A stretch of DNA of 64,000 nucleotides, from the NCBI RefSeq assembly GCF_000331245.1, contig NZ_ANFZ01000018.1:1-64000 (forward strand), in the 5' to 3' direction. Shown here one piece after another: positions 6,714-33,948 of the stretch (positions within the stretch are counted from its first letter, which is position 1; every line of letters begins with the position of its first letter). Position numbers and translations under genes: made by a program. The stretch is from Blastomonas sp. AAP53. GTDB lineage: Bacteria > Pseudomonadota > Alphaproteobacteria > Sphingomonadales > Sphingomonadaceae. The notes below the pieces were generated by a model. It searched no databases and was not told the origin of the DNA. It saw only the letters and a program-made list of their open reading frames with translations.

Positions 6714-6717
6714 CGCA

Positions 6718-8838: not shown

Positions 8839-8841
8839 CCG

Positions 8842-15889: not shown

Positions 15890-18403
15890 TCAAAACTTGT
15901 AGGCGACCTCGACACCGATGCGGCGCAGACCGCCGGGCGAGATGAACGATCCGCCAAATTCGGCAGCGGTGATGACCTCGTTCAGGTACTCGCGCTTGAG
16001 AACGTTGTCGGCGAACACCGTCATCCGCCAGTTTTCACCCTCAAGCCCGGCGCGCAGGTCGAGCACGCCAAAGGCTTCGCGCCGCGTTACGCCATAGTCG
16101 GCATCGCCGACAAAAGCCGGCAGCGCGAGCGCCGATCCCGGCAGCAGGCCGCTGAAGATCGTAGGCACGGTATTGTTCTGCAGCGTGTGGAACCAGGTCG
16201 GCCCGGTAATGCGGTAATCGGCGCGCACCACCAGATCGAAGGTGCTGGCGATCGGGGCGACCATCTGGCTGCCCAGGTTGATGGTATAATCGGCGGTCGA
16301 CGGCGACTTGTTGCCCACCGTCTGGGGGCGCGACGCGTTGGCCTTGATCTCGCTTTCGGTGACGTTGAACGCACCGAAGATCGTCCAGCCGGGCGTGACT
16401 TCCGCATTCAAATTGAGTTCTGCCCCGTAGAGCTGGACCTCGTCGATGTTCGATACCACGCGCAGCAGGCCAAAGCCGCCGACGAAGAATTCGAAGAACT
16501 GCATGTCATCGACATCGGTGTAATAGCCCGCAAGGTCGAAGGTGACCTTGCCATCCAGCAGCGAACCCTTGATGCCCCCTTCAAAGGCGCTCGACGTTTC
16601 CTTTCGATAATTGTCGGTGATGCGGACGTCCGAACCGATGAACTGGTTGAACGACTGGTCGATGACCGCCGCTGACCCTGAGTTGTTGAATCCGCCCGCC
16701 TTGAAGCCGATTCCCCAGTTCGCATAGAGGTTGACCGCATCGCTCATGGCCCAGCGGAAGGTCAGCTTGGGCTGCAGCTGCTTGTAGCTTTGCGACTTGT
16801 CGGCGATCGCGCCGCCCACCTGGCCGGGGTTGATCGGGCCACCGGTGAACGGATCGGTGACCAGGGGCACGCGGTTCGACACGCTGCGGTCTTCGATGTC
16901 ATAGCGCAGGGCCAGACCGATATTGACCACATCGTTCCAGTTGTAATCCGCCGAACCGAAGGCGGCGTAGACGTCGGTGCTGAACCGGTCGAAATACAGC
17001 TGCGTGGTCGGGTTGCTGGTGTTGGGCGCGTTGTAGAGCGAGCGGATGATGCCCTGGCCCAGGTCCGCGCCCAGGCTGACGCCGACATCGCGGCTGATGT
17101 TGAGGTAATACGCGCCCAGCTGCCAGTTGAACGGACCATCGCCGGTCGACGAGAGGCGCACTTCGCCGCTGAAGTCTTCCTGCTCGCGGATCTGATATTG
17201 CGTGCCGTCGCATGTGGTCGGGCTGTACGGGCCGAAGGTCGATCCGGTCGCGGGCGCGAAGATGAACGGCACCGGGGTCGCCCCGATGAAGCCGGGCTGG
17301 TTGACCGGGAAGCCGGTCAGCGCTGCCGTGCTGGCAAAGCAGGAATTCGACGCCGCGACCGACGCGGGCGTGGCGCCGGGGAAGGTGAAGCGGGCAAAGT
17401 CTGCCGAGGTGCCGTCTGCCGTCAGCGACTGGTCGACATTGCTGTACAGGCCCCACAGCGTCAACTTGGCGAAGTCGAATTCATGCTCCAGCTTGATTGA
17501 GGCATCGAGCGTCGTCTGGTCGTTGGTCGGGCGGATGTTGTTGTAGAAGTTGAACGGGTGGCGGTTCACGTCCTCGAAGAACGCAGGGTTGGCGCCTGCG
17601 AAATTGGGCAGATGGAACGCGGCGTTGAACGCGATGGATGCACCGGTGAGGTCCGAATATCGGGCCTTCGCGTCGATTTCGGTGCGGTCGCCCAGTTGCG
17701 CGACGAACCTGCCATCGACCGACCAGACCTCCTGGTCATCGATGGTCTTGGAGTTGTTGAGGAAGATGTTGCGATAGAAGCCATCGGTCTTCAGATACGA
17801 GCCCGAGAGCACGAACCCGGCGTTTTCGCCCACCGGCACCGAGATGAAGGCGTTGCCGCGATAGGTCTGCTGCTGCGCGGCGCTCAGCTCGATTCCCGCT
17901 TCCAGCGTATCGCCAGGCTTCATCGTCTGGATGACGATCGCACCGGCAGCGGCGTTGCGGCCGTAGAGCGCGCCCTGTGGTCCTTTGAGAATTTCGATCT
18001 GGCGCAGCGTGCCCTGGTTCTGGTTGAGCTGCGCGGTGTTGGTCTTGAGAATGCCGTCGACGACCAGCGCCACCGAGCTTTCGGCATCGCGCGCACCGTT
18101 GATGCCGCGAATGTTGATCTGCGTATCGCCCGCCTCTGCCGTGCCGGTAACGATCGTCACGCCCGGCGTCAGCTGAACGAACTGGTCGGCGGTGTCCACG
18201 CCGGTCTTCTGGATCGCATCGGCGGTGAACACGGTGATCGATGCCGGAACATCGGCGAGCTCTTCATTCTGGCGGCGGGCGGTGACGATGATGACATCAT
18301 CGCTGGCCTCGACCTGATCGGCCTGCTGCGCCAGCGCGGGTGTCGCCAGCGCACTGGCGAGAACGGTGGCCGATGCTGCGGCAAACAAACTGGATATGCG
18401 CAT
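15890..18403 (-). CDS. TonB-dependent receptor
   Basis: Outer-membrane receptor of 837 residues for energised uptake of a substrate. A signal peptide (MRISSLFAAASATVLASALATPALAQ) precedes an N-terminal plug domain (about 35-160: VIIVTARRQNEELADVPASITVF, INIRGINGARDAES, LKGPQGALYGRNAAAGAI). A 22-strand-type barrel follows, ending in the outer-membrane signature aromatic (VEVAYKF). The ATG at 18403 has AGGGAG upstream. It is the last gene of the minus operon that starts with the racemase-fold gene, 74 bases after a SnoaL-like gene. This suggests it imports the compound the island degrades. Iron uptake is an alternative, but nothing in the context supports it. Confidence 0.9.
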   Translation of the reverse strand: MRISSLFAAASATVLASALATPALAQQADQVEASDDVIIVTARRQNEELADVPASITVFTADAIQKTGVDTADQFVQLTPGVTIVTGTAEAGDTQINIRGINGARDAESSVALVVDGILKTNTAQLNQNQGTLRQIEILKGPQGALYGRNAAAGAIVIQTMKPGDTLEAGIELSAAQQQTYRGNAFISVPVGENAGFVLSGSYLKTDGFYRNIFLNNSKTIDDQEVWSVDGRFVAQLGDRTEIDAKARYSDLTGASIAFNAAFHLPNFAGANPAFFEDVNRHPFNFYNNIRPTNDQTTLDASIKLEHEFDFAKLTLWGLYSNVDQSLTADGTSADFARFTFPGATPASVAASNSCFASTAALTGFPVNQPGFIGATPVPFIFAPATGSTFGPYSPTTCDGTQYQIREQEDFSGEVRLSSTGDGPFNWQLGAYYLNISRDVGVSLGADLGQGIIRSLYNAPNTSNPTTQLYFDRFSTDVYAAFGSADYNWNDVVNIGLALRYDIEDRSVSNRVPLVTDPFTGGPINPGQVGGAIADKSQSYKQLQPKLTFRWAMSDAVNLYANWGIGFKAGGFNNSGSAAVIDQSFNQFIGSDVRITDNYRKETSSAFEGGIKGSLLDGKVTFDLAGYYTDVDDMQFFEFFVGGFGLLRVVSNIDEVQLYGAELNLNAEVTPGWTIFGAFNVTESEIKANASRPQTVGNKSPSTADYTINLGSQMVAPIASTFDLVVRADYRITGPTWFHTLQNNTVPTIFSGLLPGSALALPAFVGDADYGVTRREAFGVLDLRAGLEGENWRMTVFADNVLKREYLNEVITAAEFGGSFISPGGLRRIGVEVAYKF

Positions 18404-18477
18404 GATGTGAACTCCCTGAAATGCTGTGGTTCCCCCGAACCATTTTTGGCTTGTGGCGGCTGTTGTCATGCTGGTCC

Positions 18478-18876
18478 TCAGACCAGCACGTTGGCTCCGC
18501 TCATATAGACATGGACTTCCTGGAACTTGCCGTCGCGCAGGCGCCAGAAATTGGTGTTGGTCAGGCTCGTCACGCTGCCATCGGCGGCGGTCAGGTCTGC
18601 GATGAAACTCGCCGCTATCCGCCCATTGGTCTCATCGACGGTGCAAGTGAAATCGCGGTGGACGATGGTTTCGTACGCGCCGAAGAAATCGGCGAACATC
18701 CGCTCGATCTCGGCCTTGCCCGCGTGCGTGGTAAAGCTGGTCTGGACGGTGAACAAAGCCTCGTCGTGGAAGCAGGCGAGCGTGGCCGCCATGTCCTTGG
18801 CATCGACGCTGGCAAAATAGGTCTGGGTGGCAAACTGGATCAGTTCATCGCGGCTGAGCGTGGGTGCATATTGCAT
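18478..18876 (-). CDS. SnoaL-like / NTF2-fold protein (second copy)
   Basis: A 132-residue protein of the SnoaL/NTF2-like alpha+beta cone fold, whose members are polyketide cyclases, hydratases, isomerases or binding proteins. Visible signatures are the N-terminal helix with YFASVDAKDMAATLACFHDEALF, then FADFFGAYETIVHRDF, and an ending strand FQEVHVYMSGANVLV. It resembles the neighbouring 143-residue protein (both have a ..DVYVYMSG/EVHVYMSG end and a D-M-A/D-Q count helix). The pair probably arose by duplication and may form a heterodimer. The start overlaps the previous stop as TGATG, so translation is coupled. Substrate is unknown. Confidence 0.7.
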   Translation of the reverse strand: MQYAPTLSRDELIQFATQTYFASVDAKDMAATLACFHDEALFTVQTSFTTHAGKAEIERMFADFFGAYETIVHRDFTCTVDETNGRIAASFIADLTAADGSVTSLTNTNFWRLRDGKFQEVHVYMSGANVLV

Positions 18877-19307
18877 CAGGCGTCCCCTTCTTTCAGCAGA
18901 TTGTCGCCGCTCATGTAGACGTAGACGTCCTTGAACAGCCGGTCCTCGAGATAGAAGCGGTTGCAGTTTTCATAGCGCAACTGCTCGCCGCCATTGGGCG
19001 TGATCAGCACGGTGAACTGCGAGCAGACCGCATTCGATTCCGGGTCTGCGACATGGACGAAATTGCCGTGCCAGATCTGCTCGAAATCGGCGAACAGCTT
19101 GACGAACATCGCCCGGATCGCCTCGCGGCCCTCGTGCACGGTGTTCGATGTCACCTCGGTCAGCGTGGCGTCGGGTGCAAAGCAGTTGAGCACCTGATCC
19201 ATGTTCTTGTTATCGACGCCGTCGAAATACCGCTTGGTGACGATGTCGATATAAAACGGATACGGCAGAGGCACTTGCCCTGCGCCCCCGGGTGACCAGT
19301 CTGCCAT
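18876..19307 (-). CDS. SnoaL-like / NTF2-fold protein (first copy)
   Basis: A 143-residue protein of the same fold as its downstream neighbour: YFDGVDNKNMDQVLNCFAPDATL, then FVKLFADFEQIWHGNFVHV, then LFKDVYVYMSGDNLL. It has no signal peptide. The start codon overlaps the racemase-fold gene stop by one base (TGATG), and its own stop overlaps the second copy in the same way. The three proteins are therefore made from one coupled message. Many ring-cleavage and alkaloid or terpenoid catabolic clusters carry such proteins as small hydratases or isomerases, but no specific reaction can be assigned. Confidence 0.7.
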   Translation of the reverse strand: MADWSPGGAGQVPLPYPFYIDIVTKRYFDGVDNKNMDQVLNCFAPDATLTEVTSNTVHEGREAIRAMFVKLFADFEQIWHGNFVHVADPESNAVCSQFTVLITPNGGEQLRYENCNRFYLEDRLFKDVYVYMSGDNLLKEGDA

Positions 19308-20059
19308 CAGAACCAACCCTTTCTTATGTCTGCATCCTTGGGCACTTCCGGCATCGGAAACGCCTTTTTGCTGTGCGTCAGCCCGCATTCGATCAGGCCT
19401 TCCATGAACTTCCATGCGATCTGGCCCGGGTTTATCACCGGGATCGGCAGGTTGGCGGCGAGGAACGCCGCCGACTGGTGCATGGTGGTGGAGCCGAGCA
19501 CGATGACGTCGGCGCCGTCCTCTTCCATCGCGCGGGTCGCCTCGGCCTTCAATTTGTCGAAGATCACCTCTTCCTTGCCCGCGAGCAGTTCGGTGACATC
19601 GGGCCGGGTGTTGATCGACCGCAGCGAGGCGACGCGGTCCCAGAAGCCATATTCGGTCAGCGTCTTCTGATAGAGCGGGAACCATTCGGGCCACATCGTG
19701 AGCACGGCGAACTTCTTGCCCAGCATCATCGCAGCGGCAAACGCAGCCTCACCCGGCCCGATCACCGGGATCGTGAGGCGCGAGCGCAGCGCGCGCAGCC
19801 CCGAATCGCTGACGGTATCGATGAGGACGCCCGAATAGCCTTCCTCTTCCGCGGTGACTCCGGCCTGGAACACCGTCCAGTCCATCAGCAGCATGTCGTG
19901 ATAGCTGTCGCCGAGCGCCGCGCCCCAGGGCACGGCAACGAATTCGGGCACGAAACCGGGGCGGACGAAGTCTGCAGGCAGTTGCTCGGCGCGGGCCGCG
20001 ACGCCGGCTGCGTCCATGGGGATGGGAACTATAACCTTGATGCGGCGATCATCTGTCAT
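19307..20059 (-). CDS. Asp/Glu/hydantoin racemase-superfamily protein lacking both catalytic Cys
   Basis: A 250-residue protein with the two-domain racemase fold. In hydantoin, Asp and Glu racemases each domain supplies a catalytic Cys, in contexts like ACFGDPG and LGCAGM. Here the corresponding positions read DTVSDSG (T82) and LGSTTMH (S190), and the only Cys is C225. The rest of the scaffold is kept (PVIGPGEAAFAAAMMLG, DGADVIVLGS, PIPVINPG). Proton transfer by a Cys pair is therefore impossible, so a racemase or isomerase label should not be taken literally. The ATG at 20059 follows GGGGG. It is the first gene of the minus operon with two SnoaL-like genes and a TonB receptor, facing the GntR gene. 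Confidence 0.7.
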   Translation of the reverse strand: MTDDRRIKVIVPIPMDAAGVAARAEQLPADFVRPGFVPEFVAVPWGAALGDSYHDMLLMDWTVFQAGVTAEEEGYSGVLIDTVSDSGLRALRSRLTIPVIGPGEAAFAAAMMLGKKFAVLTMWPEWFPLYQKTLTEYGFWDRVASLRSINTRPDVTELLAGKEEVIFDKLKAEATRAMEEDGADVIVLGSTTMHQSAAFLAANLPIPVINPGQIAWKFMEGLIECGLTHSKKAFPMPEVPKDADIRKGWF

Positions 20060-20109
20060 GCGAACCCCCAAGCTGGATCGTTCCATAGGTCGATCCATGG
20101 CTTGACGGT

Positions 20110-20121
20110 ATTGTATACAAA
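20110..20121. promoter_or_regulatory. GntR/FadR-type operator, copy 1
   Basis: ATTGTATACAAA contains the perfect palindrome TTGTATACAA (20111-20120), fitting the TnGT..ACnA pattern of GntR/FCD regulators. It lies between the divergent racemase-fold and GntR genes. An 11 of 12 base match (20949-20960) precedes the HMG-CoA-lyase-like gene. Confidence 0.65.
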
Positions 20122-20214
20122 TGTCTATCGTCAATAGCGAAATTTGGTTGGCATGCGATCAACCGGTTTCGGTTCCGGCCAGGCAAGGGACGCCAAAGGT
20201 GGCGGGACTGTGGG

Positions 20215-20913
20215 ATGGGATTGAAAACAATGGAAAAAGCCGCAACACCGCGCGCGTCGGACATTGCTTATGACAAGATCCGGCAGTTCGTGCTGTCGGG
20301 GCGTGCCGAACCGGGCGAGCAACTGACCGAAGAGCAGCTGGCGCGCATTTCCGGCGTTTCGCGCACGCCGGTGCGCGAGGCGGTGCGGCGGCTGGAGAAC
20401 GAACTGCTGATCGTGCGCAGCGATTCCAAGCGGCTGTTCGTCGCCGACTGGACGGCGGGCGACATCGACGAGATGTTCGTTTTGCGTGGCATGCTGGAGG
20501 GGCACGCGGCCAGCCGTGCGGCGCGGAACATCACCAGCCGCCAAATCGAGGAGCTGGGCCAGATTTCGGATTTGCTCGATGCGGCAGTCCACGCCAATCC
20601 CCCCGATGTGGCCGAGTTTTTGGCGCAAAATCGACGCTTTCACGATATCATCCTCGATGCCGCGCGTTCACCCCGGCTGAGTGCGATGCTGCCGATGCTG
20701 GTCGAGCAGCCGGTCGTCCGCCGCACGGCCGCGCAGTATCGCACCGACGAGCTGGTGCAGTCCGCGCGCGAGCATCGCGAGCTGATCACAGCCTTTGCCG
20801 CGCGGGATTCGCATTGGGCGAGGGCGGTGATGACCAGCCATATCCGCCGCGCCTTTCATGTGTTCAGCAGCACGGCCATGCGCCGTAGCGAGCAGGTGCA
20901 GGCCAATGATTGA
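20215..20913 (+). CDS. GntR family regulator, FCD domain
   Basis: Repressor-type regulator of 232 residues. The N-terminal winged helix (about 15-75) shows AYDKIRQFVLSGRAEPGEQLTEEQLARISGVSRTPVREAVRRLE with the family's RTPVREA recognition helix. The FCD ligand domain follows with metal-binding features NRRFHDIILDA, EHRELITAF and SHIRRAF, typical of members that bind organic acids. It stands between the two arms of the catabolic island, and two matching operators flank it, so it very likely controls both arms and itself. A second start at 20230 is equally plausible. Confidence 0.9.
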   Translation: MGLKTMEKAATPRASDIAYDKIRQFVLSGRAEPGEQLTEEQLARISGVSRTPVREAVRRLENELLIVRSDSKRLFVADWTAGDIDEMFVLRGMLEGHAASRAARNITSRQIEELGQISDLLDAAVHANPPDVAEFLAQNRRFHDIILDAARSPRLSAMLPMLVEQPVVRRTAAQYRTDELVQSAREHRELITAFAARDSHWARAVMTSHIRRAFHVFSSTAMRRSEQVQAND

Positions 20914-20948
20914 ACCAATTTCTCGCAGGTCTGGACGAGCAGAATTGA

Positions 20949-20960
20949 AATGTATACAAA
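20949..20960. promoter_or_regulatory. GntR/FadR-type operator, copy 2
   Basis: AATGTATACAAA, differing from copy 1 by one base, lies directly before the HMG-CoA-lyase-like gene. The central TATACA could also serve as a -10 element, which would start transcription almost at the ATG at 20968. An earlier ATG at 20950 overlaps the site. Confidence 0.6.
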
Positions 20961-20967
20961 CCCCGGC

Positions 20968-21873
20968 ATGAGCAGCCTCCAGATCGTCGAAGTCGGCCCG
21001 CGTGACGGGCTGCAGAACGAACCCGATATCGTGTCCACCGCCGACAAGCTGGCGATGATCGGTCGCATGATCGATTCGGGTGCGCGGCGGCTGGAGGTCG
21101 CCAGCTTCGTCCATCCCCAGCGCGTGCCGCAGATGGCCGATGCCGAAGCCGTGATCGCCGGGCTGCCGGATCGGGCGGACGTCTCGTACATCGGCCTGAC
21201 GCTGAACAAGCGCGGCGTGCTGCGCGCGCTGGCGACGCGCGAAGGCGGCAGGCGCGGGGTGGACGAGATCGGCTGCGTCATCGTCGCCACCGACACCTTC
21301 GGGCAGAAGAACCAGGGGCAGACGGTGGCAGAAGGCATCGCCGAGGCGAGCGAGATGATCCGCTTTGCCAAGGCAGAAAGCCTGATAGCGCAGGTGACCA
21401 TCTCTGCCGCGTTCGGTTGTCCGTTCGAGGGCGATGTGCCGCCGCAGCGGGTTGTCGATATCGCCAGGGCGGTGCTTGAGGCCGGGCCCGCGGAGATCGC
21501 GCTCGCAGACACCATCGGCGTCGGCGTGCCTGCGCAGGTGACCGATCTGTACGGCCGTCTCGCCGAGTTCGTGCCCGCTGACGTGCGACTGCGCGCACAT
21601 TTTCACAACACCCGCGGCACCGGCATCGCCAATGCCTGGGCCGCGATCGAGGCTGGGGTGAAGGTGCTGGATGCCAGCCTTGGCGGCCTGGGCGGATGTC
21701 CGTTCGCGCCCAAGGCCACCGGCAATATTGCCACCGAAGAGCTGATCTATCTCGCACAGCGGTCAGGAATTGACCACGGCATGGACCTCGACGGTGTGAT
21801 TGCTGCCAATCGCTGGATGGCCGGAGTTCTTGGCCGCGAGCTGCCATCCCTCGTCGCGCGCGCTGCGGCATAG
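20968..21873 (+). CDS. Hydroxymethylglutaryl-CoA lyase family enzyme
   Basis: TIM-barrel aldolase/lyase of 301 residues of the HMGL-like family, cleaving 3-hydroxy-3-methylglutaryl-CoA or a related 3-hydroxyacyl-CoA. Signatures are IVEVGPRDGLQNE (residues 5-17), a metal site with HFHNTRGTG, and the C-terminal GLGGCPFAPKATGNIATE containing the lyase Cys. These are the key residues of true HMG-CoA lyases, so activity is expected. The real substrate may differ because no leucine-degradation gene is nearby and a CoA transferase is in the same operon. The ATG at 20968 leaves the operator upstream; 20950 would place it within the coding region. Confidence 0.85.
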   Translation: MSSLQIVEVGPRDGLQNEPDIVSTADKLAMIGRMIDSGARRLEVASFVHPQRVPQMADAEAVIAGLPDRADVSYIGLTLNKRGVLRALATREGGRRGVDEIGCVIVATDTFGQKNQGQTVAEGIAEASEMIRFAKAESLIAQVTISAAFGCPFEGDVPPQRVVDIARAVLEAGPAEIALADTIGVGVPAQVTDLYGRLAEFVPADVRLRAHFHNTRGTGIANAWAAIEAGVKVLDASLGGLGGCPFAPKATGNIATEELIYLAQRSGIDHGMDLDGVIAANRWMAGVLGRELPSLVARAAA

Positions 21874-21932
21874 GGGCGGATCAAATAGTCAATCGTGTCG
21901 GCGTTCGCGTCGGCGAGCCAAGGGGTGAAGGA

Positions 21933-23990
21933 ATGAGTTACAGGCTGGGTGTCGATGTGGGCGGCACATTTACCGATCTGCTGCTGTTCGACGAGCAATC
22001 GGGTGCGTTCTGGCGGCACAAGACCCCTTCGACACCGCACGACAGCTCCGAGGGCATTCTCGTCGGCGTGCAGGCGATCTGCGCCAGCGCCGGCATCACC
22101 CCTGCCGATGTCGAGATTTTCCTCCACGGCACCACCGTCGCCACCAATGCGGTGCTCGAAGGCAAGGGCGCGCGCGTTGGCCTGATCGTTACCGAAGGCT
22201 ATCGCCAGGTGATGCAGATCGCGCGCAGCTTTGTTCCCGGCGGCCTGGCCGGCTGGATCGTCTGGCCCAAGCCGACCCCGCTCGCAGCTCTCGAAGACAC
22301 CGTCGAGGTGACTGGCCGCATGTCGGCGCAGGGCGAAGAGATGCGCGGTACCGATGATGCCGATATCCGCGCTGCGCTGGAAAAGCTTAAAAGCCAAGGC
22401 GTCGAGGCGCTGACCGTCAGCCTGATGAACGCGTACCTGAACGGCGCGCATGAAAAACGCGTCGCCGAGCTCGCTGCAGAGGTCATGCCCGATGTGCCGA
22501 TCTCGCTCAGCCACATCGTGCTGCCCGAGATGCAGGAATACGAACGCACGCTGACCACTGTTGCCAATGCTGCGGTGCGCCCGGTCGTCGGCCGCTATGT
22601 CCGCAATCTGCGCAGCCGCCTGCGCGATGCCGGCATGGCCGGCAAGCTGGCGCTGCTGCGTTCCGATGGCGGGCTCATGAGCTCCGAAAAGTCGGAAGAG
22701 CACCCCGTCTCGCTGCTGATGTCCGGTCCCGCAGGCGGCGTCACCGGCGCGATCTGGGTCGGCAAGAACGCCGGGATCAGGAACATCCTCACGCTCGACG
22801 TCGGCGGCACCTCGACCGACGTGGCGCTGATCGAGAATCTGGAGGCGCGCCGGGTGCGCACCACCGAGGTCGGGCATCTGTCGGTCCGCGCCTCGGCCCT
22901 CGACGTCAAGACCGTGGGCGCGGGCGGCGGCTCGATCGCCTATGTGCCGGAATTGACCGGCGCGCTGCGTGTCGGCCCGCAATCGGCAGGCGCAGTGCCG
23001 GGGCCGGTGGCCTATGGCAAGGGCGGCGAACTGCCCACGGTGACCGACGCCAATGTCGTGCTGGGATACCTGCCCGAAGCCCTGCTCGGGGGCACGTTCA
23101 AGCTCGACCGTGAAGGTGCCAAGAAGGCGGTGCAGACCATTGCCGACGCGCTCAAGATCGATCTGTACGCCGCCGCGCGCGGCATCATCGATATCGTCAA
23201 CGAGAACATGTTCGGCGCGCTGCGCATGATCTCGGTGCAGCAGGGCTATGACCCGCGCGACTTCGCGCTGATGGGCTTTGGCGGCGCGGGCCCGCTGCAC
23301 GTCAACGCCGTGGCACGGCTGATGGGCAGCTGGCCTGCGGTCTCGCCGGTGAGCCCTGGCGTGCTGTGCGCGCTGGGCGATGCGACGACCCGGATGCGCA
23401 CCGAAACCGCGCGCAGCTTCTCACGGCTCGCAAGCGCCACCACGCTGGAGGAACTGGGCGGCATCCTCGACGAAATGGCGAGCCAGATCGGCGATGAACT
23501 GGTCTCGGAAGGCGTCGCGAAGGAAGACGTCACGATCACCTTCGAGGTCGATGTGCGCTATGCGGGCCAGGCCTTCGAGGTGCCGATGGCGGTCACCCGC
23601 GAGGAGCTGCACACGCACGGCATCGAATGGCTGACCGGCAGGTTCGACGAGGAACACCACCGGCTGTTCACCTTCAACATGGATAGCGAGCACGAGATCG
23701 TGAACCTGCGCGCCGTCGCGATGGGCCTGGCGCTCGACCTGCCTGCTGCGAAACTTGCTGAGGGCAATGGCGATCCGTCTGCGGCCAAGCTGCGAGATCA
23801 CGAATTGTGGATGGACGGGGCGATGATGCCCGCCGTCATCTACGACCGCTCGAAGCTGCTCGCAGGCGACGTGATCCCCGGCCCTGCCATCGTCATCGAA
23901 ATGGATTCCACCACGCTGATCGAAGCCGACTGCACCGGCACCGTCGATGCCGTCGGCAACATCCTGATCACGCTCAAGACGGGGAACTGA
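21933..23990 (+). CDS. Hydantoinase/oxoprolinase family, A subunit (HyuA-like)
   Basis: ATP-dependent subunit of 685 residues with an actin-like fold. VDVGGTFTDLLLFD near residue 8 and LHGTTVATNAVLEGKGA near residue 65 are the nucleotide-binding signatures, and LDVGGTSTDVALI near residue 290 the second. Relatives include N-methylhydantoinase, 5-oxoprolinase, acetone and acetophenone carboxylases and caprolactamase, all coupling ATP hydrolysis to carboxylation or to opening of a stable ring amide. With the B subunit four bases downstream it forms such an enzyme here. The exact ring or ketone substrate cannot be read from sequence. The start is preceded by AAGGGGTGAAGGA. Confidence 0.9.
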   Translation: MSYRLGVDVGGTFTDLLLFDEQSGAFWRHKTPSTPHDSSEGILVGVQAICASAGITPADVEIFLHGTTVATNAVLEGKGARVGLIVTEGYRQVMQIARSFVPGGLAGWIVWPKPTPLAALEDTVEVTGRMSAQGEEMRGTDDADIRAALEKLKSQGVEALTVSLMNAYLNGAHEKRVAELAAEVMPDVPISLSHIVLPEMQEYERTLTTVANAAVRPVVGRYVRNLRSRLRDAGMAGKLALLRSDGGLMSSEKSEEHPVSLLMSGPAGGVTGAIWVGKNAGIRNILTLDVGGTSTDVALIENLEARRVRTTEVGHLSVRASALDVKTVGAGGGSIAYVPELTGALRVGPQSAGAVPGPVAYGKGGELPTVTDANVVLGYLPEALLGGTFKLDREGAKKAVQTIADALKIDLYAAARGIIDIVNENMFGALRMISVQQGYDPRDFALMGFGGAGPLHVNAVARLMGSWPAVSPVSPGVLCALGDATTRMRTETARSFSRLASATTLEELGGILDEMASQIGDELVSEGVAKEDVTITFEVDVRYAGQAFEVPMAVTREELHTHGIEWLTGRFDEEHHRLFTFNMDSEHEIVNLRAVAMGLALDLPAAKLAEGNGDPSAAKLRDHELWMDGAMMPAVIYDRSKLLAGDVIPGPAIVIEMDSTTLIEADCTGTVDAVGNILITLKTGN

Positions 23991-23994
23991 ACTC

Positions 23995-25872
23995 ATGCCC
24001 GCCACCATCATTCAGACCAACACCACCCCGTTCGAGAAGCAGACCATCGATCCGGTCAGCCTCGACATCATCGAAAACGCGCTGCGCAACGCGCGCATTG
24101 AAATGGACGCGACGCTGGTGCGTACCGCCATGTCGCCCGGCATCCGCGAACAGGGCGATGCCTTCCCGCTGATCGCAGACCATCTCGGTCGCATGATCGT
24201 CGGCCAGTTCGGCAGCTTCATCGGCGGCTTCCTCGAGGGCTATGACGGCACGCTCGAGGATGGCGACATGATCTTCCTGTCCGATCCCTATTCGGTCGGC
24301 GGCGCGATCAGCCATTGCAACGACTGGCTGGTGCTGCTGCCCGTGTTCAAGGACGGCCGCCTGCTCGCCTATACCGCGATGTTCGGCCACCAGAGCGACA
24401 TCGGCGGCAAGGTTCCCGGATCGATGCCGATCGATGCGACCAACATCTTCCAGGAGGGCGTGCGCATTCCGCCGGTGAAGATCTACAAGCAGGGCGTCTA
24501 TAACGAGGACCTGGTCAAGCTGGTGCTGCACCAGAGCCGCACGCCTGCGTGGTGCGCGGCCGACCTCAACGCGCTGATCGCCTCGTGCCGCGTGGCCGCG
24601 CGCCGCGTCATCGAGATGAGTGAGCGCTTCGGCGTCGATACCTATGTCTCGGCGACGCAGGAACTGCTCGCACGCAACCATCGCGCGATGAAGGTGCTGC
24701 TGTCTCAGGCGATCAGCGAAGATCCGGTGAGCTTCGAGGATTACATCTGTGACGACGGCATGGGCTATGGCCCGTACAAGCTGAAGTGCACGATGTGGCG
24801 CGATGGCGACAAGGTGATCCTCGATTTCGACGGCACCGATCCGCAAAGCCAGGCCTCGATCAACTTCCTGCTCAACGAGAACATGTTCAAGATGTTCTTC
24901 GGCATCTACATGATCATGGTCTTCGATCCGCAGATCCTGTTCAACGACGGGTTCTACGACCTGATCGAGGTGCGCATTCCCGATGGGTCGCTGCTCAAGC
25001 CGCGCTATCCCGCCGCGCTGTCGGGCCGCACCCACGCACTGGGCCGCATCTTCGACATCCTGGGCGGGCTGCTCGGCCAGAAGACGCCCGAGTTTTTGAA
25101 CGCCGCCGGTTTCTCCTCGTCGCCGCACCTGTTCTATGCGGGCACCGACAAGAAGGGTGACTGGTTCCAGCTGTTCCAGATCGGCTTTGGCGGCATTCCG
25201 GGGCGGCCGATGGGCGATGGCCCCGATGGCCATTCGCTGTGGCCGGGCTTTACCAACGTGCCCAACGAGTTCCTCGAGCGGTACTTCCCACTGGTGATCG
25301 AACGCTATGAGACCGTGCCCGACAGCGGCGGCGCAGGCCTGCACCGCGGCGGCAATGGCATTATCATGACCTACCGCTTCCTCGAGCCCGGCGTCATCGC
25401 CATCCACGATGATCGCTGGTTCGTGCCGCCCTGGGGCGTCAACGGCGGCAAGCCAGGCGCGCGCGCGCGCAAGATCCTGGAAAAGGCCGATGGCACGCAG
25501 ACCATCGTCGGCAACAAGGTCGAGGACGTCCGCATCGAAGCGGGCGATGTGCTGCACTTCATCACCTGGGGCGGCGGCGGCTGGGGCGATCCGCTGGAGC
25601 GCGCACCCGAGCTGGTCGCCAAGGAAATCCGCCAGGGGCTGGTGACGTCCGAAGGCGCGAAGGCCTATGGCGTGATCGCCGATGCCGATGGCGTGCTCGA
25701 CATGGCCGCTACCGAGGCGCTGCGCACCAAGATGCGCGCTGAGCGCAGCGATCTGCCCTTGTTCGATTACGGCCCGAGCATTGAGGAGCTGCGTGCCAAC
25801 TGCCTCGCTGAAACCGGGCTGCCCGCACCGATCCAGCCGCGCTGGAATACGCACGCCATCGCTGCAGAATAA
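23995..25872 (+). CDS. Hydantoinase/oxoprolinase family, B subunit (HyuB-like)
   Basis: Partner subunit of 625 residues. Signatures are ARIEMDATLVRTAMSPGIREQGD near residue 33, SDPYSVGGAISHCND near residue 98, GHQSDIGGKVPGS near residue 131 (metal ligands in the family) and the C-terminal GGGWGDPLERAPE. It completes the two-subunit HyuA/HyuB enzyme whose B subunit binds the ring or carbonyl substrate. Coupled spacing to HyuA (four bases) and to the CoA transferase (twelve bases) puts all three in one operon. An acetophenone-carboxylase-like reaction would produce a beta-keto acid that a CoA transferase and a lyase could process; this is inference. Confidence 0.9.
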   Translation: MPATIIQTNTTPFEKQTIDPVSLDIIENALRNARIEMDATLVRTAMSPGIREQGDAFPLIADHLGRMIVGQFGSFIGGFLEGYDGTLEDGDMIFLSDPYSVGGAISHCNDWLVLLPVFKDGRLLAYTAMFGHQSDIGGKVPGSMPIDATNIFQEGVRIPPVKIYKQGVYNEDLVKLVLHQSRTPAWCAADLNALIASCRVAARRVIEMSERFGVDTYVSATQELLARNHRAMKVLLSQAISEDPVSFEDYICDDGMGYGPYKLKCTMWRDGDKVILDFDGTDPQSQASINFLLNENMFKMFFGIYMIMVFDPQILFNDGFYDLIEVRIPDGSLLKPRYPAALSGRTHALGRIFDILGGLLGQKTPEFLNAAGFSSSPHLFYAGTDKKGDWFQLFQIGFGGIPGRPMGDGPDGHSLWPGFTNVPNEFLERYFPLVIERYETVPDSGGAGLHRGGNGIIMTYRFLEPGVIAIHDDRWFVPPWGVNGGKPGARARKILEKADGTQTIVGNKVEDVRIEAGDVLHFITWGGGGWGDPLERAPELVAKEIRQGLVTSEGAKAYGVIADADGVLDMAATEALRTKMRAERSDLPLFDYGPSIEELRANCLAETGLPAPIQPRWNTHAIAAE

Positions 25873-25884
25873 GGGAAACACTCG

Positions 25885-27096
25885 ATGAACCAGGAGAACC
25901 AGGGTGCATTGGCGGGCATCCGTGTCATCGAACTGGGGCAGCTGATTGCAGGACCGTTCTGCGGCCAGCTGCTGGGTGACATGGGCGCGGAAGTCATCAA
26001 GGTCGAACCCCCCGCCGTCGATGGCAAGGGCGGGGGCGATCCGATGCGCGCCTGGGGTCATGGCGAACACAAATTGTGGTGGGAGGTCGTTGCCCGCAAC
26101 AAGAAGTCGGTCAGCGCCAACCTGCGCGTGCCGGAAGGGCAGGAGATCGTGCGCAAGCTGATCGCACAGGCCGATATCCTGATCGAGAACTTCAAGCCCG
26201 GCACGATCGAGAAATGGGGGCTGGGACCTGATGCACTGCACGCCATCAACCCGCGGCTGATCATCGTGCGCGTGTCAGGCTATGGCCAGACGGGGCCGTA
26301 TTCATCGCGCGCTGGCTTTGGCGGTATCGGCGAGGCGATGGGCGGATGGCGCGCGATCGTCGGTGATCCCGATCGCCCGCCCAGCCGCATGGGGGTTTCG
26401 ATCGGGGATTCGCTCGCTGCCACTTATGGCTGCATGGGCGCGCTTGCCGCGCTGCATGCCAGGGAGCGCACCGGCAAGGGCCAGGTTGTCGACAGCGCGC
26501 TCTATGAAGCCGTGCTGCAGGTGATGGAAAGCCTGGTGCCCGAATATATGGTCGGCGGCCATGTCCGCCAGCGCACCGGATCGATCCTGGAAGGCGTCGC
26601 GCCAAGCAATGTCTATCAGTGCAGCGATGGCGAATATCTGATCGGCGCCAACCAGGATGCGGTGTTCGCGCGGCTGTGCGCGGCGATGGGGCGGCCTGAG
26701 CTCGCCAGCGATCCGCGCTACGCCACCCATCTGGCGCGCGGCGAGCGGCAGAAGGAGCTCGACGACCTGATCGAAGCCTGGACCAAGACGCTCACCGTCG
26801 CTGAGGTCGAGGCGCTGATGATCGAGTTCAGCGTGCCCGCGGGCCGGATTTTCGGTGCATCGGACATGCTGGAGGACGAGCACTTCAAGGCGCGCGAGGC
26901 TTTGGTCGAGGTGGACAGCCCGCGCTGGGGCAAATTCGCCATGCAGAACAGCTTTCCCAAGCTGTCCGACACGCCGAGCAGCATCCGCACGCTCGCCCCG
27001 CAGAGCATCGGCGAGCATAATGCTGAAGTTTATGGCGATCTGCTGGGGCTCGACGAACAGGCTATCGCCGAGCTGAAGGCGACGGGCGCGGTGTAA
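25885..27096 (+). CDS. CaiB/BaiF family CoA transferase
   Basis: Family III CoA transferase of 403 residues with the interlocked fold. IRVIELGQLIAGPFCGQLLGDMGAEVIKVEPP opens the protein; ADILIENFKPG is the usual CoA loop, and D in SIGDSLAATYGCMGAL is the expected catalytic Asp. It transfers CoA between carboxylic acids without hydrolysis. As the last gene of the plus operon it would activate the acid produced by HyuA/HyuB so that the HMG-CoA-lyase-like enzyme can cleave it. Donor and acceptor acids are unknown. Confidence 0.9.
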   Translation: MNQENQGALAGIRVIELGQLIAGPFCGQLLGDMGAEVIKVEPPAVDGKGGGDPMRAWGHGEHKLWWEVVARNKKSVSANLRVPEGQEIVRKLIAQADILIENFKPGTIEKWGLGPDALHAINPRLIIVRVSGYGQTGPYSSRAGFGGIGEAMGGWRAIVGDPDRPPSRMGVSIGDSLAATYGCMGALAALHARERTGKGQVVDSALYEAVLQVMESLVPEYMVGGHVRQRTGSILEGVAPSNVYQCSDGEYLIGANQDAVFARLCAAMGRPELASDPRYATHLARGERQKELDDLIEAWTKTLTVAEVEALMIEFSVPAGRIFGASDMLEDEHFKAREALVEVDSPRWGKFAMQNSFPKLSDTPSSIRTLAPQSIGEHNAEVYGDLLGLDEQAIAELKATGAV

Positions 27097-27159
27097 CGCT
27101 TCGGCTGGTTAGCTTCGTTCTCCGGCGAACGCGGGCCGTTGGCATAACCGTTGTGCATA

Positions 27160-27296
27160 CGTCCCTCGACTTCGCTCGGGAACACGGGCGATTGGGACTG
27201 GCGCGTCTTCGATGTCCCATAGGTAACTACACATCCAAGCAGATTATCGGTTTGCTAACGCTCTCCCCCGTCTGTCCCGAGCGAAGTCGAGGGACG
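27160..27296. repeat. Inverted repeat between convergent genes
   Basis: Exact 22-base arms at 27160-27181 and 27275-27296 (core CCCTCGACTTCGCTCGGG and its complement) around a 93-base spacer. The arms have the sequence of a short palindromic repeat widespread in sphingomonad intergenic regions. Lying between the CoA transferase (plus) and cysteine hydrolase (minus), it may terminate both. Confidence 0.75.
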
Positions 27297-27306
27297 TTGT
27301 GCGCCC

Positions 27307-27936
27307 TCATCCCAATCCCGCCAGATGCGCCAGCACTTCGGCCTCGCTGACGACGTCGGCATATTTGGCGTTCATGTCGAACAGGTTCGCCTCGTGCGGG
27401 GCCTGGTGGCGGTCACCGCAGGCATCGGCAACGACGATGGGGATGAAGCCATGGCTTGAGGTGTCGACGCAGCTCGCGCGCACGCAACCGCTGGTCGAAA
27501 GTCCGGTCAAAATCACGCTGTCCACGCCCATCGCGGTCAAGGTCGCGGCGAGCGAGGTGCCGAAGAACGCGCTGGGATATTGCTTGGAAATCACCAGTTC
27601 ATCGGCATTGGGCTCGAGCCCTTCAGGCCATGCGCCCATCGGTGAACCGGCGACGAACACCTCAAGCAACGGCGTCTTCTGCATGAAGCGCCCGCCATCG
27701 ACCATGCTGGGGTGATAGACGACATTGGTGTAGATGATCGGGATGCCCACTACGCGCGCGGCATCGCGCACGCGGATGGCGCTGGCCAGTGCATCCTCCA
27801 CGCCTGCAAACAGCACGCAATCCGGGTCGAAATAGGCCTGGACGAAATCGATCAGCAGCAGCGCGGGGCGCTTGCCGAAGCCGATGCGGTTGCCGAACAC
27901 CCCGGCATAGTTCGATTGCGCGTCTGATGCCGTCAT
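27307..27936 (-). CDS. Isochorismatase-fold cysteine hydrolase (N-carbamoyl/maleamate amidase type)
   Basis: Hydrolase of 209 residues with the isochorismatase fold. The catalytic triad is visible: D in LLLIDFVQAYF (near 30), K in LVISKQYPSAFFGT (near 118) and nucleophilic Cys in LTGLSTSGCVRA (near 151). With the Asp-Lys-Cys triad this is the amidase group (N-carbamoylsarcosine amidase, maleamate amidase, nicotinamidase) rather than true isochorismatase. It is convergent with the plus operon but probably belongs to the same pathway, opening or deaminating an amide intermediate. It has its own promoter region upstream of 27936. No copy of the GntR palindrome was noticed there. Confidence 0.85.
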   Translation of the reverse strand: MTASDAQSNYAGVFGNRIGFGKRPALLLIDFVQAYFDPDCVLFAGVEDALASAIRVRDAARVVGIPIIYTNVVYHPSMVDGGRFMQKTPLLEVFVAGSPMGAWPEGLEPNADELVISKQYPSAFFGTSLAATLTAMGVDSVILTGLSTSGCVRASCVDTSSHGFIPIVVADACGDRHQAPHEANLFDMNAKYADVVSEAEVLAHLAGLG

Positions 27937-28005: not shown

Positions 28006-29349
28006 TCAACAGGCTGGGGCGGCGGAATGCAAGCGGCTGGCTCCGCTGTGCGGATGAATGGCCCCGCGAAAACCATCGAACTGTGCCGCGATCACGCGAG
28101 CATAGGGTTCAGAGCCTTGAGCCAGCACCAGATCGCTGTCCTCCCAAAAAAGCAGCCCGCGCCGTTCGAATTCGGTCAGAACGGCGCGGGCAGTAGGGAG
28201 GAACTCTTGCGGCAGGGTGGCGCGGCCCTGGCACAGCAATGCGTTGATGATGGCACTTCGCCGCGCATCGTCGGCATTGAGCGAGACGCCGCGTGTTGCC
28301 GTCAACCGACCCTCGCCGATGAGGGTGCGATAGGGGCCTGCGTTCTTCTCGTTCTGCACGATCAGGCCGGGAAGAATGCTGATCGCGCTCGCGCCGAAGC
28401 CCAGCAGTGATGTCGCGCCGTCGTGCGTGAAGCCCTGGAAGTTGCGGTTCACCCGGTTCTCGCGCGCGGCAACCGCCAGCGGATCGCCGGGCAGGGCGAA
28501 ATGATCGAACCCGACAGGCACATAGCCGGCAGCGGTGAGCGTGAGGTAACCGAACGCGGCCTGCTCGAAGCGTTCGCGGTCATCCGGCAGATCGCTGGCG
28601 TCGATCCGCTTCTGCCGGGGGATCATGGCGGGCAGATGCGCATAGCCGAACAGCGCGATGCGGCTGGGGGCGAGGCGGATCGTCTGTTGCAGCGTGGCGT
28701 CGAGATCATCGAGATGCTGGCCGGGCAGGCCGTACATCAGATCGAAATTGATCGCATCGATGCCGCGCATCCGAAGCGACGTCATTGCCGTTTCGATATG
28801 GTCCAGCGGCTGGATACGGCCGATCGCGGCCTGAATGTGCGGGGCAAAGGTCTGAACGCCCATGCTGACCCGGGTTACCTGAGACGAGGCCAGCACCAGC
28901 GCCCATTCGGAGGTGAAATTGCGCGGGTCGATCTCGATCGAGATTTCGGGGCGGCTGCAATCGAACACCGTCATGATCCGGTCGAGCAGACGGACGAACT
29001 CGACCGGCGCGATCGCATTGGGGCTGCCGCCGCCAAAGGCGATATGCTTCACCCGTCCGCGCCCACCCAGCCGCTTGGCGACCAGCGCAATCTCGGCGCG
29101 CAGCGCGGTGAGATAATCGGTCAGCCGGTGCTTGCGGTTGGCGGCCCCCGTGTTGCATCCGCAATACCAGCAGATCTGCTCGCAATAGGGGATATGGATG
29201 TACAGCGACAGCGCCGTCCCCGATTCCACGCCATCGAGCGCGCGCATATACTCTGCGGCCCCCACATCCTCGCCGAAATCGGCGGCGGTGGGGTAGCTCG
29301 TGTAGCGCGGCACGGGGCGGCTGAGCAGATCGGGGTGATAGGTCCACAT
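28006..29349 (-). CDS. hemN: Oxygen-independent coproporphyrinogen III oxidase
   Basis: Radical SAM enzyme of 447 residues that decarboxylates coproporphyrinogen III in haem synthesis without oxygen. The N-terminus is typical (LLSRPVPRYTSYPTAADF), the iron-sulphur motif is CEQICWYCGCN with CxxxCxxC (near residues 55-61), and the HemN C-terminal domain follows with FQGFTHDGATSLLGFGASAIS. The LPRYTSYPTA start and length fit true HemN rather than HemW. A TTGAC-N4-GTCAA box 34 bases upstream of the start codon indicates activation by an FNR-type regulator at low oxygen, matching the cco operon and the FNR gene in this window. Confidence 0.95.
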   Translation of the reverse strand: MWTYHPDLLSRPVPRYTSYPTAADFGEDVGAAEYMRALDGVESGTALSLYIHIPYCEQICWYCGCNTGAANRKHRLTDYLTALRAEIALVAKRLGGRGRVKHIAFGGGSPNAIAPVEFVRLLDRIMTVFDCSRPEISIEIDPRNFTSEWALVLASSQVTRVSMGVQTFAPHIQAAIGRIQPLDHIETAMTSLRMRGIDAINFDLMYGLPGQHLDDLDATLQQTIRLAPSRIALFGYAHLPAMIPRQKRIDASDLPDDRERFEQAAFGYLTLTAAGYVPVGFDHFALPGDPLAVAARENRVNRNFQGFTHDGATSLLGFGASAISILPGLIVQNEKNAGPYRTLIGEGRLTATRGVSLNADDARRSAIINALLCQGRATLPQEFLPTARAVLTEFERRGLLFWEDSDLVLAQGSEPYARVIAAQFDGFRGAIHPHSGASRLHSAAPAC

Positions 29350-31289: not shown

Positions 31290-31558
31290 GATGCATCCCC
31301 TCCCGTCAGCAATCGATTGCCATCATCCCAAGTTACAGATCATTTCGTTCATTCTGGCTCTGCGTCGACCAGTTCAACGCGCGCAGAGTATCACCTCCTT
31401 TACCGAACAACCGGTGAAGTAGTGGTTAATGAACGTTTGACTGTCAGTCGGTGGAGGTAAGGGCCAAGTCCTGTAAGGATTTTCGGGCGTGCCGGTCAGT
31501 GATCAGAGAGTATAGCGGCTCCTTGAGTATCGAATGTTCAAAATCGACTGGTACTTGG

Positions 31559-33385: not shown

Positions 33386-33461
33386 ACCACTACCCTCTTG
33401 TCTCGATCGATGGTGGCGTGAGCCACAATCGATTGCGCCGCCAGGATGAGTGGCTGGCGGT

Positions 33462-33477
33462 CCCCCCATTTTGGGGG
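33462..33477. promoter_or_regulatory. C6-ATTTT-G5 palindrome
   Basis: CCCCCCATTTTGGGGG lies 77-92 bases upstream of the paralogue 2 chemoreceptor start. Its core matches 14 of 15 bases of the palindrome in the HU leader. It is probably a protein-binding site. Confidence 0.4.
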
Positions 33478-33551
33478 TGACGCCTCCTATTCCGGCGTGG
33501 CTGAAACAATGGTTAATTTTTGGACCGATAGTCTTCACTATGAAGCTATAC

Positions 33552-33570
33552 ACCCCCCAAATCCGGGGGT
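33552..33570. promoter_or_regulatory. A-C6-AAATCC-G5-T palindrome
   Basis: ACCCCCCAAATCCGGGGGT is a second palindrome of the same style, about 91 bases (roughly nine helical turns) from the first. Spacing and similarity suggest one protein binding both. Confidence 0.35.
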
Positions 33571-33948
33571 ACGTCGCCGAGGAGATCGTGTCGCAAATGT
33601 TGATCGCGATCAGGCTGAAAACGATTGTAACGCGCCCATCGGGCCTATGGGCGACCAGATTTAATCGTTTTATATCAATAGCTTCTGGAATCACGCGAAC
33701 TCCTGGCGAGCGGATTGGCTCTGCGTTCGGGGCGGCGCGCCAAGGTTAACGCAAATGGTTAACAACACTTCAGTTCGCCCCGTGGGGCGGCAGCAATCTA
33801 TTGTCTGTCGAATTGTAAATTGTTTCGATGCCCCGCTGCCGGGGCCCGCGCAACCGCTACACCGCCGTCATTTTTACCGTGAAACGACCGGTTCCAGCCG
33901 AATCATCCGCCTCCGATTCGGGTAAATTTGCGCAGTTACATCCGTCGC

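Follow-up and report, generated by a model that had tools for sequence, protein, structure and literature searches.

A conserved, operator-marked gene island of sphingomonads predicted to act in cyclic-amide catabolism

Within contig C18 of Blastomonas sp. AAP53, whose 3.6-Mb genome is assembled in 28 contigs, we studied a stretch of 64,000 nucleotides (the window) and found an island of ten genes that combines known enzyme families in a way that the literature searched did not show. The genes encode a TonB-dependent receptor, two SnoaL-like proteins (SnoaL-A and SnoaL-B), a racemase-fold protein (Rac), a GntR/FCD-type regulator, a lyase of the 3-hydroxy-3-methylglutaryl-coenzyme A (HMG-CoA) type (HMGL), the subunits HyuA and HyuB (HyuAB), a CaiB-type CoA-transferase and a cysteine hydrolase (Table 1). 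The island is conserved and defined by a shared operator-like palindrome and, judging from its sequences, we propose with moderate confidence that it is a self-contained catabolic regulon for an imported cyclic amide, either a lactam or a cyclic imide. This near-complete catabolic gene set, marked by one operator and present in many sphingomonads, is small enough for deletion, expression and assay, which makes its substrate directly findable. Rac represents a conserved branch within the Asp/Glu racemase superfamily in which both catalytic cysteines are lost although selection on it stays strong, and so points to unknown chemistry.

An earlier model-generated reading of the window from its letters alone (the sequence-only reading) had named these ten genes and their families, and matches to Pfam and NCBIfam profiles bore it out, with only small corrections to start codons. 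Rac starts at 20059 and SnoaL-B at 19307, and the receptor very likely starts at 18403, with the signal-peptide-like MRISSLFAAASA..., and not at 18469. For HMGL, a start at 20968 is more likely than one at 20950, because the second operator-like site has the ATG at 20950 as its left end. The same reading knew of no described pathway with this gene set, and our search of open-licence papers likewise found no publication that contains it.

Conservation of the neighbourhood in relatives had been named beforehand as a check. When a genome collection was scanned with Rac, 84 relatives emerged, and 80 were retained as loci (labelled L here; genomes are labelled G and contigs of the source genome C). 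Gene presence was counted in the 58 loci that span 19.7 kilobases (kb) or more; these were fetched with 10-kb flanks and contain Rac by construction. The neighbourhood proved to be conserved: all ten genes are present in 41 of the 58 long loci, with SnoaL-A in 58, SnoaL-B, the receptor and GntR in 57 each, HyuA, HyuB and CaiB in 56 each, HMGL in 54 and the cysteine hydrolase in 43. Gene order is variable: CaiB may be inverted and adjoin the regulator, the receptor may separate Rac from the regulator, and the hydrolase may be relocated. The persistence of the same content despite this rearrangement argues for function. Clustering of open reading frames (ORFs) from the 80 loci and the window revealed no further family in most loci, the next commonest occurring in 16.

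The core of the island is a set of seven genes, to which Rac and the two SnoaL genes form an optional add-on. Among 199 sampled genomes of the family, 15 have Rac (called at 74% identity or more) and 49 have HyuB (E ≤ 1e-100). Dropping by hand 13 of these 49, in which HyuAB lies outside an island, the locus is a variant or the contig is short or unexamined, left an island set of 36 genomes. We separate core from add-on because 18 of the 22 Rac-negative genomes in this set have the genes for the receptor, GntR, HMGL, HyuA, HyuB, CaiB and the hydrolase together; in L106, L108, L116 and L118, one or more of the seven are not in view. Rac and the SnoaL pair, which the sequence-only reading had counted in the set, thus do not belong to the minimal set. 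The two long loci that lack the HyuAB island also carry the add-on, in Eilatimonas (L077) with a receptor and a GntR gene and no HyuAB within reach, and in an alphaproteobacterial metagenome-assembled genome (L072), where the surrounding 10 kb contain none of the other island genes. HyuA, HyuB, Rac and two SnoaL genes are consecutive on L078, a contig labelled Thiohalocapsa, and in G174, a genome without HyuB at the above threshold, Rac and a GntR gene lie at a contig end.

Two operator-like sites mark the island. When one mismatch to TTGTATACAA is allowed, the window contains only these two; shuffled windows held 0.10 sites on average, and two sites arose in 1 of 100 shuffles. The exact TTGTATACAA is found at a single place in the whole genome, and with one mismatch it is found at nine, two of which are in the island. 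We scanned the palindrome core TGTATACA in 108 loci totalling 1.96 Mb (L002 to L081 and 28 of 40 further fetched loci). Of 185 copies, 183 fall between 30 bases inside and 300 bases before the start of an island gene, in zones that make up 13.4% of the scanned sequence. Two copies are present in 80 loci, three or more in 3, one in 16 and none in 9, and the nearest start is that of HMGL in 81 loci, Rac in 58, GntR in 35, CaiB, HyuA and the hydrolase in two each and the receptor in one. Sixteen non-island loci (the 12 remaining fetched loci and the plasmid loci L102 to L105) contain zero copies. In relatives, the frequency of the sites lies far above chance. Both the earlier placement of TTGTATACAA-like sites at the two promoter regions and the idea of a single regulator between two coupled operons are supported. 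A GntR/FCD protein accompanies a conserved palindrome at the promoters that it is predicted to control.

Across 23 whole genomes, TGTATACA occurs 2 to 10 times per genome, and in 6 of them there are just two copies, both within the island (for G058 and G083, this placement was taken with the help of the locus scan). The genes controlled by this regulator thus appear to be nearly those of the island, and few others may be needed for the pathway. We collected 13 copies outside islands from four Blastomonas-type genomes and did not accept them as marking extra regulon members. Two kinds recur, and the remaining ones are not common between genomes. The recurring copies precede what we take to be a carB-like gene (L147, L149) and a short ribbon-helix-helix-like gene (L148, L151, L156). 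Just ahead of the carB-like gene in two Blastomonas-type genomes, at L147 (C21:65026, in the source genome) and L149, stands ATGTATACAA, the sequence of operator 2; this may be a coincidence or may tie ammonia release by the island to carbamoyl phosphate.

HyuA and HyuB fall on the lactamase side of their superfamily. HyuA scores 533 bits against the caprolactamase alpha profile and 308 against acetophenone carboxylase gamma; among solved relatives, HyuB scores 231 bits with N-methylhydantoinase, 215 with caprolactamase, 125 with acetophenone carboxylase and 61 with acetone carboxylase. The acetophenone carboxylase equivalogs NF042975, NF042960 and NF042976 are not reached (307.7 of 1500, 170.2 of 1250 and 127.5 of 1500 bits). 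In HyuA, Asp8 and Asp289 of two Asp-Val-Gly-Gly-Thr-type motifs and the PGP of a GxxPGP-type motif, all located by motif, are present in 98 of 98 rows, and the HyuB metal tetrad of Asp55, His107, Asp110 and His132, located through alignment with 6yra_B, is present in 97 of 97. Replacing the ATP-phosphate-binding or metal-binding residues of caprolactamase left traces of activity or none, according to the sections of PMC8453981 consulted. HyuAB thus has the residues of the ATP-dependent lactamase/hydantoinase family, and its predicted activity is the hydrolysis of a cyclic amide. Where the sequence-only reading had offered ring opening or carboxylation, the bit scores favour the first and disfavour the second.

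The three enzymes that would act downstream also have intact active sites. HMGL passes the cut-off of the HMG-CoA lyase subfamily (Table 1) and its active-site cysteine loop, GGLGGCPFAP, is invariant in 63 rows; a second HMGL elsewhere in the source genome is 41% identical to it. The Asp of the SIGD motif, which is catalytic in the CaiB family, is invariant in 60 rows and aligns with the Asp of solved relatives. The island CaiB scores below every named CoA-transferase equivalog (glutarate, mesaconate, oxalate and carnitine; best 275.8 versus 750 bits). Its three best profile hits include two equivalogs, both of them dicarboxylate enzymes (glutarate and mesaconate), and succinate-hydroxymethylglutarate CoA-transferase ranks third among solved chains. 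The best PDB match of the cysteine hydrolase is 26st (1.6e-41), the nearest relative being N-carbamoylsarcosine amidohydrolase and the next 3ot4, which is named a putative isochorismatase in the PDB and which we take to be maleamate amidohydrolase. By sequence the hydrolase thus appears related to N-carbamoylsarcosine amidohydrolases and probably to maleamate amidohydrolases. Its Asp30, Lys118 and Cys151, the Asp-Lys-Cys triad of the isochorismatase family, are invariant in 41 rows. The gene is convergent with CaiB here. In the 47 of 80 loci that have the hydrolase, CaiB and the regulator, its nearest neighbour may share its strand (CaiB in 24 loci, the receptor in 13) or lie on the opposite one (CaiB in 5 loci, as in the window, GntR in 4 and HMGL in 1).

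Rac has the fold of a racemase and lacks its catalytic residues. Its nearest named relatives, at 93–94% identity, come from Blastomonas species and Sphingomonas ursincola. A structural model with a predicted local distance difference test (pLDDT) score of 90 gave Foldseek template-modelling (TM) scores of 0.83–0.84 to 3qvk, the best match, and to the allantoin racemase 3qvj. Relative to 3qvj, Cys79 is replaced by Thr and Cys184 by Ser, and these residues, in the blocks DTVSDSG and GSTTMHQSA, are present in 79 of 79 Rac rows chosen at 60% identity or more. In the sections of PMC12661438 consulted, Cys79 and Cys184 (of the Klebsiella enzyme) are reported to be conserved across the superfamily. 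The racemase fold proposed earlier is therefore confirmed, but a racemase role is unlikely because both catalytic cysteines are lost, and we rejected it. Rac also lacks the catalytic cysteine of arylmalonate decarboxylase: Cys188 is the only proton donor of that enzyme, as stated in the accessible part of PMC4996985, and the racemase alignment places Ser at the catalytic Cys position of Rac. The GSTTMH block also occurs in relatives of 46–55% identity from Novosphingobium, Neorhizobium, Tistrella and Variovorax. Rac may be an isomerase or a hydrolase.

Ketosteroid isomerase uses Tyr14 and, as the base, Asp38. SnoaL-B has Glu51 at the base position (Glu in 21 of 21 rows), SnoaL-A has no acidic residue there (Val or Ile in 8 of 8 rows), and Tyr occupies the place equivalent to Tyr14 in all 29 rows of the two proteins. 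The SnoaL-B model (pLDDT 93) has ketosteroid isomerases among its Foldseek matches; structure searches with Rac and SnoaL-B returned the expected folds only. Because the two SnoaL genes are neighbours in almost every locus with both, they may encode the active and the helper chain of one isomerase.

From these features we infer a pathway, including the repression, every reaction, the reaction order and the class of substrate. The TonB receptor, whose NCBIfam and PDB matches gave no information on its substrate, would bring the compound in. HyuAB, as an ATP-dependent lactamase, would hydrolyse one ring C–N bond, and the cysteine hydrolase would cut the remaining terminal amide or carbamoyl group and free ammonia. 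The CaiB-type enzyme would load CoA on the resulting carboxylic, probably dicarboxylic, acid, and HMGL would cleave a hydroxyacyl-CoA, yielding an acyl-CoA and a keto acid to feed central metabolism. It is predicted that the GntR/FCD protein acts on the two TTGTATACAA operators and keeps both operons repressed in the absence of a releasing ligand. As an add-on, Rac and the SnoaL pair may widen the substrate range, Rac being probably a non-racemase isomerase that works with a ketosteroid-isomerase-like heteromer in a proton or double-bond shift.

Several observations weigh against this proposal. HMGL was not seen in 4 of the 58 long loci (2 of the 56 with HyuAB) and is not strictly required at the locus. 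The sequence-only reading had the cysteine hydrolase close the set, and the gene does lie on the same strand beside CaiB or the receptor in 37 of the 47 loci compared, but it was not found within the 10-kb flanks in 15 of the 58 long loci, or 13 of the 56 HyuAB-bearing ones, and so is not strictly required there either. The window holds no third TGTATACA that could serve it. HyuA (533.5 bits) and HyuB (220.3 bits) do not reach the caprolactamase equivalog cut-off of 1000 (NF050156, NF050157), and HyuB is equally close to hydantoinase, which leaves room for a hydantoin substrate. Among the 108 scanned loci are the 16 with one operator-like site and the 9 without any. Of these nine, L114, L115 and L117 have HyuAB in an IclR-type cluster and L060, L072, L078, L079 and L108 are contig pieces or lack the island, but L123, with its seven-gene island, is a genuine exception. 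Finally, the PuuE-like and RutA-like genes of the related loci described below score below their equivalog cut-offs.

The hydantoin relationship leads to an alternative that we consider possible although unlikely, a hydantoin/N-carbamoyl route of the creatinine type, in which HyuAB opens a hydantoin, the hydrolase removes the carbamoyl group, and CaiB and HMGL take the carbon skeleton. The creatinine route, made up of N-methylhydantoinase and N-carbamoylsarcosine amidohydrolase, supplies the best solved relatives of HyuB and the cysteine hydrolase, and Rac is nearest to allantoin and hydantoin racemases in sequence and fold. However, Rac is without both catalytic cysteines, the hydrolase is unseen in the 13 HyuAB-bearing long loci mentioned above, and the creatinine route has no place for the CaiB, HMGL, TonB receptor, Cys-less Rac and SnoaL pair of the island; to our knowledge, pathways of this type need no CoA-transferase or HMG-CoA-type lyase. 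Nor do we know of a pairing of these two enzymes in caprolactam catabolism. That route (PMC8453981, PMC6061476) also starts with an ATP-dependent two-subunit lactamase, CapAB of Pseudomonas jessenii, which has the same metal tetrad and ATP motifs. The island HyuA and HyuB lie far below the equivalog cut-offs of CapAB.

HyuAB shares its superfamily with the acetone and acetophenone carboxylases, which have extra subunits beside their A- and B-type subunits, and it could in principle be an ATP-dependent ketone carboxylase, with a product that CaiB would activate and HMGL would cleave. We hold this to be quite improbable, and disfavour it on the bit scores, which place HyuB (231 and 215 versus 125 and 61) and HyuA (533 versus 308) with the lactamases. 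At the metal site, Asp55 of HyuB corresponds to Glu in acetone carboxylase, although acetophenone carboxylase also has Asp, going by the sections of PMC8453981 consulted. ORF clustering showed no extra common family, with no search aimed at carboxylase subunits made, and HyuAB is usually accompanied by a cysteine amide hydrolase.

Very improbable, in our judgement, is an oxindole route for dioxindole-3-acetate, which arises in auxin breakdown: HyuAB would open its lactam, CaiB would activate the side-chain acid and HMGL would release acetyl-CoA and isatinate. This chemistry would suit the three enzymes, and the hydantoinase-like IaaCE, which acts in anaerobic auxin breakdown, offers a partial likeness: in the anaerobic indoleacetate pathway it is combined with a family III CoA-transferase, so that lactam hydrolysis is followed by CoA transfer. 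Unlike the island, that pathway belongs to anaerobes and, as far as we know, has other downstream enzymes and no HMG-CoA-type lyase. The island contains no oxygenase, and its amide hydrolase would be left without a role. IaaCE is among the homologues aligned in the part of PMC8453981 consulted, but hydantoinase is absent from the consulted part of an auxin paper (PMC12633357), and no literature was found that joins dioxindole-3-acetic acid with a hydantoinase; with nothing matching in the literature searched, we rejected this route. That unrelated operons are neighbours by chance is almost certainly wrong, as we found no point in its favour and it is refuted by the content kept despite rearrangement and by the shared operator-like sites.

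Genomic surroundings elsewhere also point towards cyclic amides. Seven other sphingomonad loci (L114, L115, L117, L122, L133, L134 and L135) have close HyuAB homologues (78–87% identity) in another, mostly IclR-type cluster. Profiles identified allantoinase PuuE-like, flavin adenine dinucleotide (FAD) hydroxylase, arylmalonate-decarboxylase-like and methylisocitrate-lyase-like genes in L134 and a dihydropyrimidinase-like gene in L115; similar genes were recognized by eye in other IclR-type loci, and L114 has HMGL and CaiB in the same run as HyuAB. A 118-residue protein without a Pfam or NCBIfam match (L117:260-613) recurs near the HyuAB-type clusters of L117, L122 and L133, and a long methyltransferase-domain protein (L117:613-1899) adjoins it in L117 and L133. 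On two Novosphingobium contigs (L074 and L075), a RutA-like flavin oxygenase gene adjoins the island itself.

Plasmid clusters of three genera carry Rac relatives (46–50% identity) that, like Rac, lack both cysteines. The relative is accompanied by HyuAB, a cysteine hydrolase, MmgE/PrpD and a gene annotated as oxaloacetate decarboxylase in Neorhizobium, by MmgE/PrpD and a gene of the isocitrate-lyase/phosphoenolpyruvate (PEP)-mutase type in Tistrella, and by a cysteine hydrolase and two polysaccharide-deacetylase-family genes in Variovorax. These clusters have ATP-binding cassette (ABC) importers in place of the TonB receptor, and the Neorhizobium and Tistrella plasmids have MmgE/PrpD with oxaloacetate decarboxylase or isocitrate lyase/PEP mutase where the island has CaiB and HMGL, which such lyases could replace by different chemistry.

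A second cluster lies on contig C12 of the source genome, of which 26 of 52 kb were viewed (L159, C12:1-16000; L160, C12:42000-52120). It contains CaiB2, HMGL2, a two-subunit LeuCD-type hydratase, a cysteine hydrolase, three PuuE-like hydrolases, an amidase and another racemase-fold protein, of a third type with Ser and Cys at the catalytic places (by eye). Like the island, it places HMGL and CaiB paralogues next to amide hydrolases and hydrolases of the cyclic-amide type; unlike the island, it has PuuE-like hydrolases and a LeuCD hydratase, and the viewed part contains no HyuAB. No TGTATACA was found on C12. Orthologues of CaiB2 and HMGL2 (72–80% identity) adjoin the island in 11 of the 80 loci, five of which also show LeuD or LeuC. 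A link between HMGL/CaiB pairs and hydrolases of the cyclic-amide type is thus seen twice, although the genes of the two clusters resemble each other only distantly. The presence of a LeuCD hydratase suggests a shared scheme of ring opening, amide loss, hydration, CoA transfer and cleavage, in which hydration would act on an unsaturated diacid and cleavage would be a retro-Claisen reaction. Since no hydratase is recognizable among the island genes, the substrate may already bear a hydroxyl group, or the SnoaL pair may supply this step.

A narrower and improbable version of the proposal is that the island is a dedicated route for tetrapyrrole ring fragments, namely pyrrolinone lactams and substituted maleimides derived from chlorophyll and bilins, with the Cys-free racemase-fold enzyme as a new type of isomerase. 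ATP-dependent ring opening and amide removal would here lead to CoA-dependent cleavage of an alkylmalate-type acid, and Rac would work with the ketosteroid-isomerase-like pair. Such fragments would fit the chemistry, the TonB receptor and an enrichment of photosynthetic reaction-centre genes. These genes are present in 19 of the 36 genomes of the island set and 15 of 163 others, in 21 of 49 HyuB-bearing genomes and 13 of 150 others, and at genus level in 12 of 24 versus 8 of 72, all significant differences on raw counts, without control for phylogeny. Rhodopsin (7 of 36 versus 20 of 163) and flagellin (27 of 36 versus 106 of 163) showed no significant difference. We give the link to phototrophy little weight because, in genera with mixed states, island and phototrophy show no co-variation. 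Mono- and dipyrrolic products of chlorophyll breakdown are reported from plants and herbivores (PMC7318184, consulted in part), and the portions of the maleimide and bilin literature consulted yielded no bacterial pathway of this kind.

Table 1 Features of the island, with coordinates in the window
Feature	Coordinates	Strand	Evidence or position
TonB-dependent outer-membrane receptor (importer)	15890..18403	-	Pfam TonB_dep_Rec 5e-32, Plug 2e-19
SnoaL-A (SnoA1), NTF2/ketosteroid-isomerase-like	18478..18876	-	SnoaL_2 8e-11
SnoaL-B (SnoB2), NTF2/ketosteroid-isomerase-like	18876..19307	-	SnoaL_2 3e-12
Rac, Asp/Glu/hydantoin-racemase fold	19307..20059	-	Asp_Glu_race 1e-29
Operator 1 (predicted), TTGTATACAA	20111-20120	.	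Between Rac and regulator
GntR/FCD-type regulator, probable repressor	20215..20913	+	GntR 4e-15, FCD 2e-23
Operator 2 (predicted), ATGTATACAA	20950-20959	.	9-18 bases ahead of likely lyase start
HMGL, HMG-CoA-lyase-type retro-Claisen lyase	20968..21873	+	NF004283 297 bits, cut-off 246
HyuA, predicted ATP-binding subunit of ATP-dependent lactamase/hydantoinase	21933..23990	+	Hydantoinase_A 9e-86
HyuB, predicted metal-binding hydrolytic subunit	23995..25872	+	Hydantoinase_B 3e-147
CaiB-type (family III) CoA-transferase	25885..27096	+	CoA_transf_3 1.5e-124, 416 bits
Isochorismatase-family cysteine hydrolase	27307..27936	-	Isochorismatase 1e-32

Around the island, reading of the window showed a HemN-like gene (28006-29349) directly past the cysteine hydrolase, whose ORF family occurs in 6 of the 81 clustered loci, followed at 29466-33694 by a tandem pair of similar chemoreceptor-type (methyl-accepting) proteins. 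On the other side, at 5328-12313, a sugar-transferase-like gene precedes genes for a sensor kinase, an AAA-domain response regulator and a TPR protein, presumably resembling a PEP-CTERM/exopolysaccharide (PrsK/PrsR) locus.

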